From Mesorhizobium sp. SARCC-RB16n (GTDB lineage Bacteria > Pseudomonadota > Alphaproteobacteria > Rhizobiales > Rhizobiaceae), in contig NZ_ML703284.1 of the NCBI RefSeq assembly GCF_008520305.1, forward strand, positions 80,248 to 144,247: a stretch of 64,000 nt of DNA, written 5' to 3'. Shown here piece by piece: positions 41,360 to 51,520 of the stretch. The notes beneath the pieces are model-generated. The model saw nothing but the letters and a program-made list of their open reading frames with translations. It was not told the DNA's origin and did no database searches. How positions within the stretch are numbered: position 1 is the first letter of the stretch; every line of letters begins with the position of its first letter. A program made the translations under genes and the position numbers.

Positions 41360-42180
41360 ATCGGACGGCGGGGTGGCCGGATCTGGGCCGGCTCGACCAC
41401 CTTGCGGTAGAGGTGCCAGGTGGCGTGGCCCAGGATCGGCATGACGACAGCGAGACCGGCAAACAGCGGGATCGAGCCGATCACCAGCAGCACCGCGACG
41501 ATCAGACCCCAGAGCGCCATCTGCAGCGGATTTGCCATGACCGCGCGCGCCGATGTCTCTATTGCCGAAACGGCGCCGACATCACGATCGAGCAAGAGCG
41601 GGAAGGCAACGACCGTGGTCGCCAGCACGATCACCGCGAAGACCAGGCCAGCCACGTTGCCGAGAAGAATCAGCGTCCAGCCCTTGCGGGTCGTCAGCAC
41701 ATCGCGCAGGAAGGCCCCGACCGAAGCCGGCGGCTCGCCGCCAAAAAGGCTGGTGTAGATCGACTGCGCCGTGAACAGCCACAACAGGAACAGCGCGAAC
41801 AGCATGATGCCGATGACCGCTATCGAGGGCAGCGCCGATGAGCGGCGGACATCGAGCGCATGTCGCCAGTTGGTGTTCATGCCGAGCTCGCGCCGGCGGC
41901 TGATCTCATAGAGTCCGATCGCGGCGAACGGACCGACCAGAGCAAAGCCCGACATCAAGGGATAGACGAGCTGGATGGCGTTGGAGCCGGACGTCCACTG
42001 TGTCAGGATCAGGCCGACGATCGGATAGATCAGGCACAGGAACACGTAATGCGAGGGCTTGGCCCAGAAGTCCTCGGCGCCAAGCCTGAGCGCGTCCCAG
42101 AGGTCCGCCGTGGAAATGCGGCGGACCGCTGGTTGCACATGCATCCCATAGGCGTCCGCCATGACATGAAAGCCAGCCAT
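41356..42180 (-). CDS. DUF2189 domain-containing integral membrane protein
   Basis: A 274-residue protein with about six membrane segments matching DUF2189 (ISTADLWDALRLGAEDFWAK, then LMSGFALVGPFAAIGLYEIS). Function unknown; it has been seen near respiratory genes in other alphaproteobacteria. A strong GGAGGAAGG site precedes the ATG. It is translationally coupled to the interrupted hydrolase gene. Confidence 0.87.
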   Translation of the reverse strand: MAGFHVMADAYGMHVQPAVRRISTADLWDALRLGAEDFWAKPSHYVFLCLIYPIVGLILTQWTSGSNAIQLVYPLMSGFALVGPFAAIGLYEISRRRELGMNTNWRHALDVRRSSALPSIAVIGIMLFALFLLWLFTAQSIYTSLFGGEPPASVGAFLRDVLTTRKGWTLILLGNVAGLVFAVIVLATTVVAFPLLLDRDVGAVSAIETSARAVMANPLQMALWGLIVAVLLVIGSIPLFAGLAVVMPILGHATWHLYRKVVEPAQIRPPRRPM

Positions 42181-42427
42181 AACCTTCCTCCGTTTTTCGG
42201 GGGGCGGTCACCGCCTAGGGTGGCCGCCCGTAGCTGCCACTTCAAGAACGCTGGCATCATAGCCGATCTTCCCGGAATTGTCGCCGCATCTCATCGGGAT
42301 TGCCGGGCGGCCTTCGTTTGGCGCACCACCGAGTTCACTTGGAATGTGGGCATTTTAGTTATTGCTTAAATTACTCGTAGAGACCCAGGGCTTATCACCT
42401 GAGCTTTACAAATCTTGGCGAGGGGCG

Positions 42428-43651
42428 ATGTTCGGATTGAAGGGCTTCTGGTCTTCGGAGCGCGGCAATTTTGCCATGGCGACTGCCATAGCGATGCTGC
42501 CGATAATGGCTGTCATCGCCGGCACCCTCGATCTGACAGGCACGAGCGACGACGCCGCGCAATTGCAGAACTCGCTGGACGCGGCTGGGCTTGCCGTCGG
42601 CACCAAGTACCTGCCCAGCATGAGCGCGAGTGATGTGCAGGGACTTGGGCTGACATTCTTTGCAGCCAACATGAGCGTCGCCGACCAGCAGGAATATTCG
42701 GGCAGCGTCTCCGCCTTTTCGGCCACCGCCAGCGGCGATCCGAACGCCTATTACATCTCGCTTTCGTCCGGCATCAACCGTCCGAGCTTCATCAACGGCG
42801 CTGCCGCCTGGCCAGCTCACAGGTCGGCGACTGTCAAGATGCACCCGGGTGCACAGGCCTGTGTGCTGGCGCTCGATCCGCATGCGTCGGCCGCGGTAAG
42901 CCTGCAAGGCTCAACCAATGTCTCGATGAGCAATTGTGTGATCGCGGCAAACTCGGACGCGTCGGATGCCGTCAGCAGAGGCGGTTCGGCACAGGTTTCG
43001 GCGGGCTGCGTCTCGACGGTCGGCGGCACTTCCGGGCTTTCGCCACCCAATGCCAATCTCACCTGCGGCTCGCCGCTCGTACATCAATATGCTTCCTTCG
43101 ATCCCCTGGCGGACATCGTGCCTCCCCCTTACACATTCTGCCTGCCAGTGCCGAACGGCAAAACCTACACGCTGTCGCCCGGCACCTATTGCGACAAGAC
43201 ATTGTCAGGAAACATCACGCTCAACCCAGGCGTCTACATCCTGCGCGGCGTAACCCTGAAGCCGGGCGGGAACGGCAGCCTGAGCGGCCAGGGCGTGACC
43301 ATATTCCTCGTAGAGGGAGCACAGATCTACATAAACGCCAATGAAACGGTGAACCTTTCGCCGCCAACCAGCGGGCCTTACGCCGGCATCACCATCTACC
43401 AGAGCCGCGGGAACACATCGGCCTTGACCCTGAATGGCGGCGCAAATTCCGTGATCAGCGGATTCGTCTATGCGCCTGACGCGGCCGTTTCGTTCGCCGG
43501 CAACTCGGATATGAGTGGCCAGGGCGACTGCCTGAGGCTTGTTGGCTTGACCGTGCAGATGACAGGCAACTCATCCATCAAGACCGACTGCACGGCCGTG
43601 TTCGGAAATCGCGAGATGTACTCCAGCCGCCTCATCACGCTTGTGAACTAG
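42428..43651 (+). CDS. TadG-like protein with Gly/Ser/Asn-rich putative beta-solenoid
   Basis: A 407-residue protein. The N-terminus (ERGNFAMATAIAMLPIMAVI) is a TadE/TadG-type membrane segment. There is no vWA metal motif. Residues 150-400 are rich in Gly, Ser, Asn and Thr with spaced hydrophobics (YTLSPGTYCDKTLSGNITL, LNPGVYILRGVTLKPGGNG), which suggests a right-handed beta-helix like a surface adhesin or polysaccharide-active fold. GAGGGG precedes the ATG at 42428. It is the second TadG-like gene here, 2.7 kb from the first, and shares only the N-terminal pattern. Confidence 0.75.
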   Translation: MFGLKGFWSSERGNFAMATAIAMLPIMAVIAGTLDLTGTSDDAAQLQNSLDAAGLAVGTKYLPSMSASDVQGLGLTFFAANMSVADQQEYSGSVSAFSATASGDPNAYYISLSSGINRPSFINGAAAWPAHRSATVKMHPGAQACVLALDPHASAAVSLQGSTNVSMSNCVIAANSDASDAVSRGGSAQVSAGCVSTVGGTSGLSPPNANLTCGSPLVHQYASFDPLADIVPPPYTFCLPVPNGKTYTLSPGTYCDKTLSGNITLNPGVYILRGVTLKPGGNGSLSGQGVTIFLVEGAQIYINANETVNLSPPTSGPYAGITIYQSRGNTSALTLNGGANSVISGFVYAPDAAVSFAGNSDMSGQGDCLRLVGLTVQMTGNSSIKTDCTAVFGNREMYSSRLITLVN

Positions 43652-43727
43652 CCGCCAACTGCCCTTCGATTCGAAATTTCACCGCCCTGCCCGGCAAAAG
43701 CCATGATCGCGATCGAGTCAGGCACGC

Positions 43728-44243
43728 ATGACCACTTCGAAAATCGATTGCGATCGAACCGCGAACTTGAACAGGCGCACCTGGCTCATAGCGGCTGGCC
43801 TGGCGGCCTTGCTCGGGCTTGCCGCCTGCAGCACCGTCTCGCTGCCAACAGGGCAAGGCGCCGGGGTTTCCTCCTCGGCAACCGGTACGCTGGCGAGCCT
43901 GCGCGCCTCGTCTGGGCTCGGTCCGCTGGTCCCCGATACACAGTTGGAGCAAGCAGCGCTCCAGCAGGCCAGCTACATGGCGTCGCGCGAGCACATGAGC
44001 CACACCACCGGGTGGGGCAAGGATTTCGCCTCGCGCATGAAGGATAACGGCGTACACGGTGCCGCGGCCGAGAACATCGCGGCCGGCCGCTTCGATCAAC
44101 AGAAGCTGTTCGACATCTGGATGCATTCGCAGGGACACCGGCGCAACATACTCGATCCGGACTTCAGCCGCTTTGGGCTTGCCTATGTCCGTGACGGCCG
44201 CGACCCCAACCTGCGCTACTGGTCGCTGGTGCTCGGCAGGTAG
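43728..44243 (+). CDS. CAP/SCP domain lipoprotein
   Basis: A 171-residue lipoprotein with a lipobox at LGLAAC, followed by a CAP (cysteine-rich secretory protein/PR-1) domain: LEQAALQQASYMASREHMSH, ENIAAGRF and MHSQGHRRNILDPDFSRFGL. Bacterial CAP proteins such as YkwD-type proteins are periplasmic or surface proteins of uncertain activity. It lies 76 bases after the TadG-like gene and converges with the emrB-like gene. Confidence 0.87.
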   Translation: MTTSKIDCDRTANLNRRTWLIAAGLAALLGLAACSTVSLPTGQGAGVSSSATGTLASLRASSGLGPLVPDTQLEQAALQQASYMASREHMSHTTGWGKDFASRMKDNGVHGAAAENIAAGRFDQQKLFDIWMHSQGHRRNILDPDFSRFGLAYVRDGRDPNLRYWSLVLGR

Positions 44244-44289
44244 CAAAGCTATCGCCGGCGGCGGGCACCCTTGGCGAGCAGCCGCTACA

Positions 44290-45825
44290 TCAGTCCATAT
44301 GGGCAGCAGGCGCAGCGCCGCCAGCCGGACCGGCCTTCGGCTTGCGCAGCAGGAATACAAACGGGATGGCGACCAATGTCATCATCATCAGTATTTTGAA
44401 GTCGTTGACGTAGGAGATCATCATCGCCTGGAGATTGACCATGCGATCGACCTCCGACAGCGCCGTCGGGTCGCCGCCGGCAGCCGCCGGCGAGACCGCC
44501 CAGAGATTGGGATTGAACGGGTTGATGAAGGCGGAAAGCTCGGCATGGTTGATCTGCGTGTTGCGCACCAGCAGCACCGTCACCACCGATACGCCGATCG
44601 ACGAGCCGAGATTACGCACCAGGCTGAACAACGAGGTAGCATCGGTGCGGTAGCGGGCGTCGAGCGTGGCGAAGGCAACCGTCGACAGCGGCACGAACAC
44701 CATTCCCATGCCCAGGCCCTGGATCACGCCGGAGCTGAGGATCAGCCAGTTGTCCATCTGCGGGGTGAAGCTGGCCATGGTGTAGAGCGACTGCGCGGTC
44801 AGGAGGAAGCCGATGACGACGAGAATCCTGGCATCGATCTTGCCCATGATGCGCCCGACGACGAGCATGGAAATCATCGTGCCGACGCCACGCGGCCCGA
44901 TGACGATGCCGATGGTGACGGTCGGATAGCCGAAGATGGTCGACAGCATCGGCGGCAGCAGCGACATAGAGGCCAGGATCAGCACGCCCATGACGAAGAT
45001 GAACGCCAGTCCGGTCACGAAATTGCGGTCGAGGAAAATCTTCGGATCGATGAAGGGATGTTCCGATGTCACGGTGTGAATGATGAACACCCAGAAGCCG
45101 GTGATCGAAAGACCAAGCTCGATCCAGATCTCGACCGAGGAAAACCAGTCGACCTCGCCGCCGCGATCGAGCATCAGCTGCAGGGCGCCGACGCCGAGTG
45201 ATATCATGGCAAAGCCGAAGAAATCGAAGCCGCGCACCCGACGGGCAACGGCCGGCAGATAGGCGGCCATGCCGAGGAAGGCGAGGATGCCGACCGGCAG
45301 GTTGATGAAGAACACCCAGCGCCAGTTGAAATTTTCGGTCAGCCAGCCGCCAAGCGTGGGGCCGAGGATCGGTCCCAGCATGATGCCGGCGCCCCATATG
45401 GCCATCGCCTGGCCATGGCGCTCCTTGGGGTTGATGTCCAGCAGGAAGGTCTGCGACAGCGGCACGATCGCGGCGCCGAACACACCTTGCATCAGCCGGA
45501 AAAGCACGATGGTTTCCAGGCTCCACGCCAGGCCGCACAACATCGAGAAGATGGTGAAGCCGACCACCGCCGTCAGGAACAGTTCCTTGCGGCCAAAACG
45601 GTCGGCGAGCCAGCCGGTGACGGGCGTCATGATGGCGGCGGCGACGATGTAGGAGGTCAGCACCCAGTTGATGTTGTCGGGTGAAGCGCCGAGATCGCCC
45701 GTCATGGTCGGCAGCGCGACGTTGGCGATCGTGGTGTCGAGCGCCTGCATGACCGTCGCCAGCATGAGCGCGACCGTAATCAGGCCACGATGCGGCACTT
45801 CTTTGAACGGTTCGGACGTGCTCAT
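44290..45825 (-). CDS. DHA2-family MFS multidrug efflux permease (EmrB/QacA type)
   Basis: A 511-residue permease with about 14 membrane segments. Landmarks are MQALDTTIANVALPTM (motif D1), GWLADRFGRKELF (motif A) and GPTLGGWLTENFNWRWVFFI (motif C). With the membrane fusion protein upstream it should form a tripartite drug pump that works with an outer-membrane TolC protein encoded elsewhere. A MarR gene heads the operon. A folded element lies in the 304-base gap between it and emrA. Confidence 0.92.
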   Translation of the reverse strand: MSTSEPFKEVPHRGLITVALMLATVMQALDTTIANVALPTMTGDLGASPDNINWVLTSYIVAAAIMTPVTGWLADRFGRKELFLTAVVGFTIFSMLCGLAWSLETIVLFRLMQGVFGAAIVPLSQTFLLDINPKERHGQAMAIWGAGIMLGPILGPTLGGWLTENFNWRWVFFINLPVGILAFLGMAAYLPAVARRVRGFDFFGFAMISLGVGALQLMLDRGGEVDWFSSVEIWIELGLSITGFWVFIIHTVTSEHPFIDPKIFLDRNFVTGLAFIFVMGVLILASMSLLPPMLSTIFGYPTVTIGIVIGPRGVGTMISMLVVGRIMGKIDARILVVIGFLLTAQSLYTMASFTPQMDNWLILSSGVIQGLGMGMVFVPLSTVAFATLDARYRTDATSLFSLVRNLGSSIGVSVVTVLLVRNTQINHAELSAFINPFNPNLWAVSPAAAGGDPTALSEVDRMVNLQAMMISYVNDFKILMMMTLVAIPFVFLLRKPKAGPAGGAAPAAHMD

Positions 45826-45865
45826 GGCCTAGAACTTCCAGAAGGTAACAGAAACGTGTACAACG

Positions 45866-45986
45866 GGTTTCCGGGCGGCAAAGCCTTCCGTTGAGAGACC
45901 CTCATCGCGGTGGGACGCGATTATCGATGTGGGGGTTACATCGACCGAACGTCTCTAGCTGAGCGGATGCCTGCCGCCCGGAAACC
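45866..45986. ncRNA. Candidate structured RNA or leader element between emrA-like and emrB-like genes
   Basis: The 304-base gap 45826-46129 has no reading frame of note but is highly symmetrical. Arms 45866-45880 (GGTTTCCGGGCGGCA) and 45972-45986 (TGCCGCCCGGAAACC) pair perfectly over 15 bases. Inside are TCCG/CGGA (45887-45890, 45964-45967), AGAGAC/GTCTCT (45894-45899, 45951-45956), and two perfect hairpins at 45904-45921 (loop GTGGGA) and 45924-45944 (loop GGGGGTT). This is a branched fold. On the minus strand it would be the emrB leader, ending 40 bases before the ATG. No T-run follows either arm, so it is not a plain terminator. Confidence 0.5.
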
Positions 45987-46129
45987 TGAGGACCGACGGG
46001 GCCGTGTCGAAGGTTCAGATCTTGGACAGCCACGCGGCTCGGCCCAAACATTGATCCTTCCCACCCCTCCCATCGGACCAATCCTGCAACTCGCTTCCAC
46101 CCGCGTGGTCCCCGCGGGCTTCCGCTGAC

Positions 46130-47308
46130 TTACTGCGCGGGCTCGCCGGCCGTGGCGTGGCCGAAGATCGACGGCCAGCCGCGCGCGACGCCCGTATCGA
46201 CGGTAACCGAAGCACTCATGCCGGTGCGCAGCGCCATCTTGGCATCGGGGTCGGTCAGTTCCAGGCGCACCGGAATGCGTTGGGTGACCTTGACCCAGTT
46301 GCCCGTGGCGTTCTGGGCGGGCAGCAGCGAGAAGTCCGCGCCGGTGCCGGCACCAATAGCCTTGACGGTCGCCTCGAAGGTCCTGCCCGGATAGGTATCG
46401 ACCACGATCTCGGCCTTCTGGCCCTGCTTCATGTTGGTGAGTTGGGTTTCCTTGAAATTGGCGTCGATCCAGGTGTCGCCGGTCTCGACCAGCGCAAACA
46501 GCGGTGTCCCGGAGCCGACATACTGGCCGACCTTGAAGGAGGCGGCTTGATAGACGACACCATCGGAAGGCGCTTTCACCGTGGTCTGCGCCAGATCGTA
46601 AGCAGCCTTGTCGCGCGCGGCGAGCGCCGACATCACGGTCGGATGCTTGTCGGTTTCGATGTCGGGGTTGCCGCCGAGCGCGGCCTTGGCGCTGATGATG
46701 CCCTGCTGGGCGACGGCGACTTGCTGTTTTGCCTTGTCGAGGTCGTTGCGGGCCTGATCCAGCGACGACTTGGCGTTGATGCCCTTCTGCGCGAGATCGG
46801 CGGCCCGGTCGTACTGCGACTGGGCGTAGTCGACCTCGCTGCTGGCGGACTTCTCCTGCGCCATCGACTGACTGTAGGCGGCACGCAGCTGCTCGACATT
46901 GAGGCGCGCGGCCGCCACCGCGGCATCGGCCTGGGCAAGTGCGATCCGGTAGGGCTCGGGGTCGATGGCGAACAGCAGATCGCCCTGCTTCACCGTCTGA
47001 TTGTCCGATATGGCGACATGGACGATACGGCCGGCCGTGTCAGAGGCGATCGACACCTTGGCCTGCTGCAGGTTGGCGTTTTCCGTTTCCTGGTAGCGCC
47101 CGCCCGTCACCCAGACATAGCCTCCGCCGATGATCAGTGCCGCCGGCAAGGCGAACATCAAGAAGAGGCGGCCGATGCGGCGCTTCTTCTTCGGCGCCGG
47201 GAGCGGCTGCACGGGAGCAGCGACCGCGACGGGTGTGGCAGCCGGCTGGGCCGGCGCTTCCATCTCCACCTTGGGAGCGTTTTCTTCTACCTTGGCTACC
47301 GCGTTCAT
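46130..47308 (-). CDS. HlyD-family membrane fusion protein (EmrA-like)
   Basis: A 392-residue periplasmic adaptor. A Pro/Ala-rich cytoplasmic start leads to one membrane helix (IGRLFLMFALPAALIIGGGY), a biotinyl-lipoyl half (NANLQQAKVSIASDTAGRIV), coiled coils (residues about 125-220) and the second lipoyl half (TTVKAPSDGVVYQAASFKVG). It links the EmrB-like permease to the outer membrane. Its ATG overlaps the marR stop as ATGA. Confidence 0.92.
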   Translation of the reverse strand: MNAVAKVEENAPKVEMEAPAQPAATPVAVAAPVQPLPAPKKKRRIGRLFLMFALPAALIIGGGYVWVTGGRYQETENANLQQAKVSIASDTAGRIVHVAISDNQTVKQGDLLFAIDPEPYRIALAQADAAVAAARLNVEQLRAAYSQSMAQEKSASSEVDYAQSQYDRAADLAQKGINAKSSLDQARNDLDKAKQQVAVAQQGIISAKAALGGNPDIETDKHPTVMSALAARDKAAYDLAQTTVKAPSDGVVYQAASFKVGQYVGSGTPLFALVETGDTWIDANFKETQLTNMKQGQKAEIVVDTYPGRTFEATVKAIGAGTGADFSLLPAQNATGNWVKVTQRIPVRLELTDPDAKMALRTGMSASVTVDTGVARGWPSIFGHATAGEPAQ

Positions 47309-47784
47309 GCTGCCGCGCCTTCCGCACTCTTGATCTTTTCCATCGACGAAGCTTCGCCATCCGTCAGATTCTGCACGATTACATCCAGCGCCCGGATCAG
47401 GACGCGCCGATCTTCCGGCGAAACGCCGCTGAGCGACTCCTCATAGACCTCGCCAGCGAGGCTCTTGACGTCCGCATAGGCCGCGTTCGCCTTCTCGGTT
47501 GGGAAGATCATCCGCACGCGCCGGTCGGCCGCGTCGGAGCGGCGTTCGATCCAGCCGCCCTCCTCCATCCGGTCGACCAGTCGTGAGACGCTGATCGGCT
47601 CGATTTCAAGCAGTTCGGCGAGCCGCGCCTGTGCAACGCCCGCTTCCTTGGCAACGCGGACCAGAAGCCGCCATTGCGCCGAAGAGAGGCCGAGTCCGCT
47701 GGCGCGCGCCTCAAAGCGCTTGCGCATCAGGCGCTGCACGTCGTGGATCAAAAATCCCAATCTGTCGATGCCATCTGAAACCAT
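47305..47784 (-). CDS. MarR-family transcriptional regulator of the efflux operon
   Basis: A 159-residue MarR protein: LSSAQWRLLVRVAKEAGVAQ and LAELLEIEPISVSRLVDRME form the winged helix, and DAADRRVRMIF the wing. As first gene of the operon it probably represses its own promoter until a drug or metabolite binds. The ATG at 47784 has no ribosome-binding site and the likely -10 box lies only six bases upstream, so the mRNA may be leaderless. Confidence 0.88.
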   Translation of the reverse strand: MVSDGIDRLGFLIHDVQRLMRKRFEARASGLGLSSAQWRLLVRVAKEAGVAQARLAELLEIEPISVSRLVDRMEEGGWIERRSDAADRRVRMIFPTEKANAAYADVKSLAGEVYEESLSGVSPEDRRVLIRALDVIVQNLTDGEASSMEKIKSAEGAAA

Positions 47785-47790
47785 GAGCGA

Positions 47791-47819
47791 TACATATAAT
47801 AAGCGTGCTTACTATTCAA
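47791..47819 (-). promoter_or_regulatory. Promoter and operator of the marR-emrA-emrB operon
   Basis: Read on the minus strand, TTGAAT, 17 bases, then TATGTA fits a sigma-70 promoter. The spacer holds the inverted repeat TAAGC-AC-GCTTA (47800-47811), a likely MarR operator that would block RNA polymerase. Outer bases (47796-47798 with 47813-47815) extend the symmetry. Confidence 0.5.
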
Positions 47820-47945
47820 GATGCCATGTCACGATGAAAGCCGGCAAAATGCGCATGGCAGGCCTGCAACGCGATCCTGGTTAGCAACAGGTGAACGCCG
47901 CACCCATGCGCAACACCCGCGCGGAAGGGCACGAAGACGCCGTCT

Positions 47946-48995
47946 TCAGAGGCGGTTCCGGACAACCATGGTGACGACGAAGAATGCGCCGAGCGAGCTG
48001 GTGATGACGCCGATCGGCAGCTCCTGCGGCGGCAGCAAGGTCCGGGCCAGAAGATCGCTTGCCAGCAGCAACACCGCCCCGAACAGCGCGCAACTTGCGA
48101 TCAGGCGCAGATGCAAGGGGCCGGCCAGCGGCCGCGACAGATGCGGGATCATCAGTCCGACGAAGCCGATGACGCCAGCGACCGAGACGAGGATCGCGGT
48201 CGAGAAAGCGGCCACGAGAAATGTCGCTCTGCGCATGCGGGCGACCGGAATGCCAAGACTCTCGGCGGCGCTTTCACCGGCCAGGAAGGCATCCAGCTTG
48301 CGGTGGTTCCACAACCCGTAGGCCGCGATCGTGCCAGCGCCGACCGCACCCAGCCACACATTGTCCCAGCGCGCCAGTCCGAGCCCGCCCATGGTCCAGA
48401 ACAGCACCGAATGGGCCGCGCGCTGATCGCCGGCAAAGACCAGGTAATTGGTCAAGGCCGTGAACATAAAGGAGACGGCAAGGCCGGCGAGGATCAGCCG
48501 CTCAGGACCTTGCCCTCTCACCCGCGCCACCAGCAAAAGCACGATAGTGGCGGCGAGTATTCCGCCGGTGAACGCGGCCACAGGCAAGGTCCAGATACCG
48601 AAACTGTCACCAAGGACGGTGATGACGGAAACGGCGCCGGCAGCCGCCCCCGACGACAGGCCGAAGAGGAAAGGGTCGGCAAGGTCGTTGCGGGTCACCG
48701 TCTGCAAAAGCGCGCCGACGATACCCAGGCCGCCGCCGACACAGATCGCCAGGATCGTGCGCGGCAGCCGCAGGTCGACGACGATCTTGCCGACCGGGCC
48801 CGATATCCGAGGCTCATCCAGCCCGACGGCACGGCCAAGTGCCGCGACGACATCGGTTAGAGGTATCAGCGTAGAGCCGTAAGCGATCGACAGCAGTGCG
48901 AGAGCGACGAGCGCCACCGCGCCCGCCGTCATGGCCAGCGCGAAGGCCTTGTGCCCTGAAAGCGCGCCGGATTTGTGCTCTCGGGCAAGATCCAT
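47946..48995 (-). CDS. FecCD/BtuC-type ABC transporter permease (cobalamin or metal chelate)
   Basis: A 349-residue permease with about ten membrane segments. Landmarks are DLRLPRTILAICVGGGLGIV near residue 75, FGLSSGAAAGAV, and GVIGFVGLMIPHLSRPLAGP, the EAA-like loop that docks with the ATPase. Such permeases carry cobalamin, haem or iron-siderophore. The ATG at 48995 overlaps the binding-protein stop as TGATG. A cobalamin riboswitch at the head of the operon points to cobalamin or a cobalt compound. Confidence 0.9.
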   Translation of the reverse strand: MDLAREHKSGALSGHKAFALAMTAGAVALVALALLSIAYGSTLIPLTDVVAALGRAVGLDEPRISGPVGKIVVDLRLPRTILAICVGGGLGIVGALLQTVTRNDLADPFLFGLSSGAAAGAVSVITVLGDSFGIWTLPVAAFTGGILAATIVLLLVARVRGQGPERLILAGLAVSFMFTALTNYLVFAGDQRAAHSVLFWTMGGLGLARWDNVWLGAVGAGTIAAYGLWNHRKLDAFLAGESAAESLGIPVARMRRATFLVAAFSTAILVSVAGVIGFVGLMIPHLSRPLAGPLHLRLIASCALFGAVLLLASDLLARTLLPPQELPIGVITSSLGAFFVVTMVVRNRL

Positions 48996-49942
48996 CAGAA
49001 CGCTTCCGGATGCATCGCCCTGGCAATCTTGCCGATGGCTTCGATGTTCGCCGGTCCTGGCGTCAGCTCGGCATAACGAAGCGCGACGAAGCGCTCGTTC
49101 TTGACCGCGTCCGTTTCTTTCATCGCCGGGTGCGCCTTCAGGAAATCGAGCAGTTTCCTGTAGCCGCCGCCGTCCTGATAATCGAGCAGGATGAGGAATT
49201 GCGGATTGCGCGCCGCCACCGTTTCCCAATCCGTGTTGCCCCAGCTCGTTTCCATGTCGGCCATGATGTTGTCGCCGCCGGCTGCCGATATCATGGCGCT
49301 GGGGATGGCGAATTTTCCAGCGGTAAAGGGCTTGTCCTCGCCGGAATCGTACAGGAACACGCGCGTTCCCTTGGCGCTGCCGACCTTGGCGGTGATATCG
49401 GCGAGTTGCGTCTTCCAGCCGGCAACCAGCTTCTCCGCTTCTGCCTCCTTGCCGAAGATCTTGCCCAGCTTTTCGACGTCGCCATAAAGCAGGTCCATGG
49501 AGGCGGCCGGACGGCTCTTGTCGAGATGGACGCAGCTTTCGGTCAACACCAGCGTCTTGATGCCGTGCGGGGCGAGCGTGTCGGGGGTCACGTCGCCGCC
49601 GGGCTTCATGCCGTAGTACCAGCCGGCGAAGAAGAAATCGGGCTCGACGGCAACGAGATTCTCCAGCGTCGGATATTTCGGTGCCAGTTCGGGAATAGAA
49701 CCCTGTTCGGCCTTGAATTCGGGGCCGACCTTGTACCATCCGGTGATGCCCGTCAGGCCGACGATCGATGGCTGCAGCTTCAGCGCGAAGGCCATTTCGG
49801 CCATGTTGAGATCATGGATGACGGCGCGCTTCGGCGGCGCGTCGAAGGTCAGCGGCTTGCCGCAGCTGTCGACCGTGACGGGAAAGGCAAAGGCCGTCGA
49901 GGCCAGCAGCGAGAAGACGAGGGAAAGGGCGAGGCGTTTCAC
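48995..49942 (-). CDS. Periplasmic binding protein of FecB/BtuF type
   Basis: A 315-residue protein with a Sec signal (residues 1-19, ending ASTAFA) and a class III binding-protein fold. Family pieces are PPKRAVIHDLNMAEMAFALK, YPTLENLVAVEPDFFFAGWY and the C-terminal helix. It delivers the ligand to the FecCD-type permease. Under riboswitch control a corrinoid ligand is likeliest, though the family also binds siderophores. It follows the ATPase by 46 bases. Confidence 0.88.
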   Translation of the reverse strand: MKRLALSLVFSLLASTAFAFPVTVDSCGKPLTFDAPPKRAVIHDLNMAEMAFALKLQPSIVGLTGITGWYKVGPEFKAEQGSIPELAPKYPTLENLVAVEPDFFFAGWYYGMKPGGDVTPDTLAPHGIKTLVLTESCVHLDKSRPAASMDLLYGDVEKLGKIFGKEAEAEKLVAGWKTQLADITAKVGSAKGTRVFLYDSGEDKPFTAGKFAIPSAMISAAGGDNIMADMETSWGNTDWETVAARNPQFLILLDYQDGGGYRKLLDFLKAHPAMKETDAVKNERFVALRYAELTPGPANIEAIGKIARAMHPEAF

Positions 49943-49988
49943 GGATTTGCTCCTTGGTTGAACTGTGTCGGATAAAGTGCGGGTTTGA

Positions 49989-50777
49989 TCAGGACGGGGG
50001 CGCGGCGCGGTTCGGAAGATCGAACACCGTCAGTTCGCGGTCCTCGGTGGGGTGGCGCAGGCGCAACACGTCGACGCCGAAAATCTCGCGGATCAGTTGC
50101 TGTGTCAGCGCCTCGTGCGGCGGCGCCAGCGCCTGCAGCCGGGCCTCGTTCATCACCGCGACCCTGGTGGCGAAAGGCGCCACCAGGGTCAGATCGTGCA
50201 GCACCGCGATCACGGTCATGCCGAAGCCGGCCACCAGTTCGAGCAGTTCCGCGCGTGCGCGAGGGTCGAGGTGGTTGGTCGGCTCGTCGAGGAACAGGAT
50301 TTTGGGCTCCTGCGCGATGGCGCGCGCAAGCTGGGCGCGCTGGCGTTCGCCACCAGACAGCGAACCGATGGTGCGGCCGAGCAGCGGCAGGAGACCGGTC
50401 CGGCGCAGCGCGTCCACGACAATGTCGCGTTCCTCGCCGCGACGCCTCAGGCCGGCATGCGGGACGCGGCCAAGCTCGACATAGTCGATCACCGCCAGCC
50501 GTGGGTCCGGCTGGTCTGTCTGGCCCACGACGGCGATATGCAAGGCGCGCTCGGCGGGCGAAATCCTGTCCAGGCGTCGCCCGCCAAGCTTCACCTCTCC
50601 GAAGCTCGGCCGGAGCATGCCGGACAACATGCGCAGTAGCGTGGTCTTGCCGGCGCCGTTGGGGCCAATGATGGCGAGTCGGTCGCCCGATGTCACCGAC
50701 AGGCTGACCGCGTGGACCAGATTCCGGCCATTCGCCATCGCGCTCAAGTCACGCGCATCGAGAAGCGACGTTGTCAT
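49989..50777 (-). CDS. ABC transporter ATP-binding protein (FepC/BtuD type)
   Basis: A 262-residue ATPase with Walker A GPNGAGKTT, signature LSGGERQ, Walker B ILFLDEPTNHLD and the switch His in VLHDLT. It energises the FecCD-type permease. Its ATG overlaps the DUF1636 stop as ATGA, which fixes the start at 50777. Confidence 0.92.
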   Translation of the reverse strand: MTTSLLDARDLSAMANGRNLVHAVSLSVTSGDRLAIIGPNGAGKTTLLRMLSGMLRPSFGEVKLGGRRLDRISPAERALHIAVVGQTDQPDPRLAVIDYVELGRVPHAGLRRRGEERDIVVDALRRTGLLPLLGRTIGSLSGGERQRAQLARAIAQEPKILFLDEPTNHLDPRARAELLELVAGFGMTVIAVLHDLTLVAPFATRVAVMNEARLQALAPPHEALTQQLIREIFGVDVLRLRHPTEDRELTVFDLPNRAAPPS

Positions 50778-51151: not shown

Positions 51152-51292
51152 GGGGCTGGGCTGAATACGATCGATTGCGCCGTCCAACTTCCCGTCACTT
51201 TCAAAACTGGCGACGGAAGGATGTTGGTCGACCGGCCGACAAGACCGATGTCCACGTTTCCTCCCGGCACACCCCGTCCGGTCAACTCAGCG

Positions 51293-51472
51293 ATGGCAGG
51301 TCTCCTGGCTCACGGGTCTCTGCGCAATCCTGCCTTCCCAGCCTTGCCGGCCAGTGGCATTCCGGATCTTGCTCGCCGCTTACAGTTGCGGGGGCAGCCG
51401 CGGCCTCGACCTGAAATGGGGTCTCACCGCGTTCCCTTTTCACCCCTCGCCTTTCGGCTCGGGGACCATCAC
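51293..51472 (-). promoter_or_regulatory. Cobalamin riboswitch
   Basis: Read on the minus strand, the region contains the hallmark segments in order: GTGAAAAGGGAACGCGGTG, then GGCTGCCCCCGCAACTG with TAAGCGG, a variable arm, and the 3' closing sequence GCCAGGAGACCTGCC at 51295-51309. This is the B12-sensing aptamer. It ends about 140 bases before DUF1636; expression platform not resolved. It should switch the four-gene transport operon off when adenosylcobalamin is plentiful. The whole non-coding stretch 51152-51691 is accounted for by leader, aptamer and two divergent promoters. Confidence 0.95.
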
Positions 51473-51520
51473 GAGTCGCAGCCTAGGCCGCGAGCGGTTT
51501 CGAGGCAAGGCAATCGTTTT

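Follow-up and report, generated by a model that had tools for sequence, protein, structure and literature searches.

A conserved candidate RNA element, probably derived from a dispersed repeat, between the adaptor and permease genes of two unrelated efflux operons in Mesorhizobium

An open question about multi-protein pumps is how a single mRNA can yield their parts in suitable proportions. It is raised by a folded element between the two pump genes of an efflux operon in Mesorhizobium sp. SARCC-RB16n. The element occupies 121 bases (45866..45986, minus strand) of the 64,000-nucleotide stretch of contig NZ_ML703284.1 analysed here, which we call the window. It lies in a presumed operon on the same strand that begins with a gene for a MarR-family regulator (47305..47784) and continues with emrA, encoding the periplasmic adaptor (46130..47308), and emrB, the downstream cistron, encoding a DHA2-family MFS efflux permease (44290..45825), all assigned by profile search. 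The names emrA and emrB, given in a first-pass annotation made from the letters alone, hold: the permease exceeds the cut-off of TIGR00711 (EmrB), and EmrA/EmrK (TIGR00998) is the top NCBIfam match of the adaptor, though below cut-off, with TIGR01730 (RND_mfp) above its own. The emrA stop codon and the element are separated by 143 nt, and a 40-nt spacer (45826..45865) leads from the element to the emrB start.

Read as RNA from the minus strand, which is the sense strand for these genes, the element is predicted to fold into a Y whose long outer stem closes an inner stem and a pair of apical hairpins. Inverted-repeat analysis delimits the outer stem P1, a 5' arm (45972..45986) and a 3' arm (45866..45880) of 15 nt that are 100% complementary, as the annotation had described. 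Its inner stems and two hairpins are likewise recovered in the minus-strand fold: the apical hairpins P4 (45923..45945, loop AACCCCC) and P5 (45904..45921, loop UCCCAC) both sit inside shorter stems. The CCCCC of the P4 loop is also kept in the divergent copies printed. The minimum free energy of 45866-45986 is -66.8 kcal/mol (z -7.83) for the minus strand; for the plus strand it is -64.3 kcal/mol (z -5.48). None of 200 shuffles was as stable on either strand. The strong fold is real, and the earlier view that it would hardly arise by chance was right. No coding signal had been reported either, and none of the 37 ORFs of at least 80 aa listed for 42000-50000 overlaps the element; a leader peptide in the gap was rejected on this ground and because indels are not multiples of three, as judged by eye.

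Part of the stretch that separates emrA from the element (45989..46084, minus strand) is taken up by a second, weaker conserved hairpin block of uncertain role. It has a near-invariant base and a variable upper part. Among 34 sequences chosen for folding out of 78, the same base was seen by eye in 26, L035 and L042 being exceptions. Its covariation is weak, paired positions not rising above shuffles, and the block is not seen in the RND gaps described below. A kissing interaction of the P5 loop with an upstream G-rich block was also considered by eye and dropped, since clades do not all share the match and such a block is missing from the RND gaps.

The element does not correspond to a described Rfam RNA. 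No covariance model matched it at the gathering threshold, nor did any match appear up to E 10 for 45780-46150, in agreement with the annotation, which had recognised no class. A search of ten loci with relatives returned a single tRNA only. Elsewhere in the window an ordinary cobalamin riboswitch (RF00174, 128 bits) lies at 51278-51485 on the minus strand. Simple consensus searches of 45700-46250 gave no terminator- or promoter-like site, and an intrinsic terminator or attenuator was rejected, as no GC-rich stem with an immediate T run was found on either strand.

Conservation was assessed at emrB loci, the best 80 of 291 related ones being examined; 77 of the 80 are recorded as Mesorhizobium. 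In the alignment, 77 of the 80 carry a full-length element before emrB. There are three exceptions: L078 has the element without its 5' outer arm, L080 has none, with emrA and emrB 21 nt apart (to an in-frame ATG), and M. prunaredense (L046:3987-4001) has an emrA-emrB gap of only 13 nt in a genome that retains the RND copy. Since emrAB is kept there at a 13-nt gap, the element is dispensable at that locus. P5 is absent from the emrB copies of about 100 nt in divergent genomes (folds of L107 and L110, sequence of L196).

Divergence was measured in an alignment of 74 sequences (A1; 2701 pairs) that excludes L080, L078 and identical rows. In the bin of 1352 pairs with a mean four-fold divergence of 0.341, divergence was 0.010 in the outer stem, 0.016 in the P4 stem and 0.007 in the P4 loop, 0.145 over the entire element, 0.456 in the flanking gap 5' of it and 0.209 in that 3' of it. 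Stems and loops thus evolve much more slowly than four-fold sites, which indicates selection on sequence besides pairing. The element is under strong, sequence-specific selection that goes beyond pairing alone.

The distance to emrB does not share this constancy. The spacer measures 37-47 nt in most loci but 98-306 nt in 16 of 77, where 58-266 extra nt precede emrB, so that the distance from the element to the start codon is not fixed. In five of the six long spacers printed (L015, L022, L048, L051 and L059) a partly palindromic insert directly follows the 3' side of the element, the element and the emrB-proximal stretch being intact; in L071 the insert is nearer emrB. This bears on the proposal of the first-pass annotation that a riboswitch or attenuator controls emrB separately from emrA, in this case by sensing a ligand. 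High conservation of sequence and structure, a multi-helix junction and a sense-strand position adjoining a transporter gene would suit such a device. It is nevertheless quite improbable given the variable spacer, which leaves no expression platform at a fixed distance, the failure to find a terminator in the region searched or an Rfam class, the position within the operon, downstream of the adaptor gene, and the presence of the same element in the operon of an unrelated pump.

Covariation depends on which copies are compared. Within the emrB copies alone, none of 36 pairs shows changes on both sides, which is the outcome that the annotation had named as telling against its reading. Once the copies from the RND operon and the divergent L193 are added, two-sided change appears in 14 of 45 pairs, against 5.8 ± 1.7 in shuffles, none of 500 of which reached 14. 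This alignment (A5) consists of 40 chosen copies; those omitted include divergent copies from RND operons (L098, L099, L117, L120, L194 and L195) and the emrB copies of about 100 nt. In it 90.7% of cells pair, and controls with slid pairing give 3-8 two-sided pairs.

The direction of single changes provides a further indication. Parsimony on the emrB tree counts, on the sense strand, 41 changes from Watson-Crick to G-U pairs against 10 to A-C and 10 to other mismatches; in P1 alone the figures are 10, 0 and 2. After removal of two doubtful and three G-U-rich pairs, 22 changes to G-U remain against 7 to A-C (two-sided binomial about 0.008), with the caveat that obtaining the structure from the sense strand in itself favours G-U pairs. 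The excess of G-U over A-C, reversed on the other strand, makes the structure look selected as sense RNA, and these sequence comparisons point to selection on the RNA structure of the sense strand. The annotation's placement of a structured RNA on the minus strand, on the emrB side and in a position where permease could be separated from adaptor expression, is upheld. Co-directional genes and a sense-strand RNA structure, both found here, are what is expected of an intercistronic element for differential expression, the operon itself being presumed.

A covariance model built from the emrB copies (R1) revealed a second site in six of the eight genomes first searched; among these eight, the genome of L046 (G007) has the second site only and G006 no real site. 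The second site lies in an operon of the order tetR - RND adaptor - RND permease, on the sense strand and again between adaptor and permease genes. Classification of the strong sites gave 20 at emrAB, 33 at distinct RND adaptor-permease gaps and one at neither (L179); six of the 20 emrAB sites overlap with the 80 fetched emrB loci, and the identical sites L090/L100, L092/L094 and L093/L095 were each counted once. In RND operons 14-66 nt separate the adaptor stop codon from the element, and about 38-165 nt lie between the element and the permease start, which is inferred from alignment and in some operons is not an ATG. Element boundaries coincide with stem ends. At L179:4001-4125 the element stands alone, with outer-stem mismatches, emrAB being missing; this relic adjoins the CAP-type gene found downstream of emrB in the window. 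Weak R1 sites outside efflux operons are those in L101 (E 0.009) and L091 (E 6.9).

The element is widespread in the genus, with an R1 match at E 0.01 in 136 of the 146 Mesorhizobium genomes searched. A model trained on efflux copies only, without repeats (R3), found two sites in each of 23 genus genomes, both above 90 bits in 22 of them, contexts being checked for part. It also gave a weaker third site of about 105 nt in nine of the 23. A repeat-like third site lies just 3' of a gene for an oligopeptide-binding-type protein, in reverse orientation to the gene, and occupies the same place in eight Mesorhizobium genomes (L101:2546-2651; L224-L230, 3001 to 3105/3106). The ten genomes with no R1 match at E 0.01 measure 3.3-4.8 Mb. 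Three of them have an orthologous RND operon whose adaptor-permease gap is exactly 34 nt and contains an AAGAGG-type ribosome site; in these element-free operons the identity is 84-86% for the permease and 57-65% for the adaptor. The simplest reading of these sequences would be that the element was gained twice, in both cases in the gap separating an adaptor gene from a permease gene.

In both operons the stems and loops are conserved in sequence, as would also be expected of a binding site for an RNA-binding protein whose main purpose is regulation, for instance if both pumps were under one stress regulator and stoichiometry were secondary. We consider this fairly improbable: no candidate protein emerged, and divergent RND copies differ in the P5 loop. 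A trans-acting sRNA, cut from or ending in the emrA 3' region and pairing through its C-rich loops with G-rich mRNA sites, appears unlikely, though less so. Few parts vary as little as the loop AACCCCC, the folded unit has clean ends, and the second site could encode a sibling. Yet neither an own promoter nor a terminator was detected by simple consensus in 45700-46250, and the element stays in the gap between an adaptor and a permease gene. As weak evidence, the main text of a published M. huakuii sRNA screen, in the parts available, contains none of the terms emr, efflux, multidrug and MFS, its table naming flanking genes by tags.

The origin of the element is suggested by weak R1 matches outside the genus list, which are palindromes of about 105 nt at assorted intergenic places. 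A covariance model of eight such repeats, with no element copies in training (R2), was applied at E 0.05 to five genomes that bear the repeats and gave 120, 103, 42, 12 and 10 matches. The genomes G208, G169, G057, G197 and G037 carry the repeat family of about 105 nt, several copies being located at contig ends. At E 1e-6, 62 of 297 family genomes have R2 matches, at most 13 candidates being scored per genome. Common to these repeats are GGTTTCC-type ends and a C-rich apical loop, and six loci with repeat copies had no Rfam match. Plain alignment of repeats against the element gives z values of 0.5 to 10.8 for repeats chosen by R1, and -1.2 to 7.1, a weak likeness, for those chosen without it.

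More telling is the behaviour of R2 on the efflux loci. Of 27 loci, 18 have a sense-strand match of R2 to the element with E at or below 0.01, the top match being L014 (E 1e-6). Within the window the element is the highest-ranking R2 match (27.3 bits, E 7e-4); no off-element match at E 0.01 occurred in 219 kb of efflux loci. Seven of the other nine loci have weaker sense-strand matches, with E greater than 0.01; L099 matches on the other strand only and L195 not at all. In the reverse direction R3 matches repeats in G037, G169 and G208 (three of 397 genomes, E 6e-6 to 5e-5). Positions were obtained for R2 matches up to about E 2e-5; beyond these, there were single matches in G003, G004 and G005 (E 0.0119, 0.0409 and 0.0023) and two in G256. 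The matches located in G001, G002, G006 and G007 lie at other sites. The best R2 match in 200 kb of S. meliloti pSymB reached only E 0.17, which is not significant. The E-values of R2 and R3 are rough, and palindromy may raise scores. Recognition of the element by a model that has seen repeats only argues for descent from such repeats, and common ancestry of the element and the dispersed 105-nt palindromes is likely on this comparison.

The annotation had named dispersal as a simple repeat as an observation that would tell against a regulatory RNA. Dispersal is what is found for the relatives in other genomes, whereas in Mesorhizobium the element itself has a low copy number, two sites as a rule, unlike the many-copy repeats. 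A palindromic DNA repeat, mobile or structural and without RNA function, would account for the palindromic form, the boundaries at stem ends and the kinship with repeats dispersed in other genomes. As a full explanation it is very improbable, since the element has few copies in the genus, a constant position among classified sites, slow evolution and strand-asymmetric G-U changes. No DNA match of the element was found on the plasmid or phage sequences searched; a search of viral contigs with EmrA gave three distant matches.

The explanation that we favour, with about even confidence, is that of a cis-acting, repeat-derived intercistronic RNA of the presumed marR-emrA-emrB mRNA, which would set permease output relative to the adaptor. 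A repeat copy would have inserted between the adaptor and permease genes and moved the latter gene away from both the former and its old ribosome-binding site, and the element would now determine permease yield relative to the adaptor. Two routes, alone or together, may lead to such a change of ratio: the upstream adaptor mRNA could be protected from 3' decay, or permease synthesis could be lowered because the tight coupling and the former ribosome site were lost. The presence of the same element in the same gap of an unrelated second pump suggests that it probably helps to set part-to-part output. What the two operons have in common is their architecture, adaptor first and permease second, rather than a protein family, so that either route fits both. 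In such pumps adaptors outnumber permeases, six to three in RND pumps. An adaptor excess would explain the identical site in both operons, whatever the pump exports. The positional case rests on two acquisitions only.

Structure alone is not sufficient, since a pure stability hairpin would be expected to drift with compensation, and the stems hardly change. The constancy of stems and loops therefore suggests a trans-acting partner, for which the invariant C-rich loops might be the landing site. A bolder version, possible but on balance doubtful, is that the repeat was domesticated twice in unrelated tripartite pumps, as a portable ratio-fixing RNA module read through its C-rich loop by one trans-acting RNA-binding regulator or sRNA. 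The natural controls available, namely element-free operons, one deletion and one relic, make the question of pump ratio directly testable. The importance of the case lies in one RNA element found in the same gap of two unrelated pumps across most of a genus, and in a genome-wide repeat that seems to have been recruited as a regulatory RNA under selection.

In the parts of the literature covered on EmrAB and efflux, intercistronic, palindromic and Mesorhizobium topics, no treatment of the element was found. The available parts of two sRNA screens describe RIME and other repeats being set aside (PMC2245857, PMC2573895), and those of another study deal with programmed decay within operons (PMC5927463); further related material is contained in the parts seen of PMC1273637, PMC10459465, PMC2267715, PMC5596092 and PMC3927594. 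Like the Rfam riboswitches and cis-regulatory motifs, the element has a conserved sense-strand fold adjoining a transporter gene, but it differs from riboswitches in having no family match, no expression platform found and a position internal to the operon. It resembles the rhizobial palindromic repeats of the RIME and Bru-RS type, imperfect intergenic palindromes of about 105 nt with a long outer stem and a C-rich apical loop, and is unlike them in its two Mesorhizobium sites as a rule, its slow evolution and its extra side hairpin; the repeats related to it are not equated here with RIME or Bru-RS, which are compared by name only. Intercistronic repeats of the REP/BIME type, as between malE and malF, stabilise the upstream mRNA. 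In a comparison made without sequences, the element shares with them a stem-loop between the genes of an abundant periplasmic and a less abundant membrane product in one operon, but it is larger, is not repeated genome-wide in Mesorhizobium and has conserved loops. In the puf operon of purple bacteria, intercistronic mRNA hairpins bring about differential expression. Compared likewise without sequences, these hairpins concern other genes, and the likeness lies in differential expression within an alphaproteobacterial operon.
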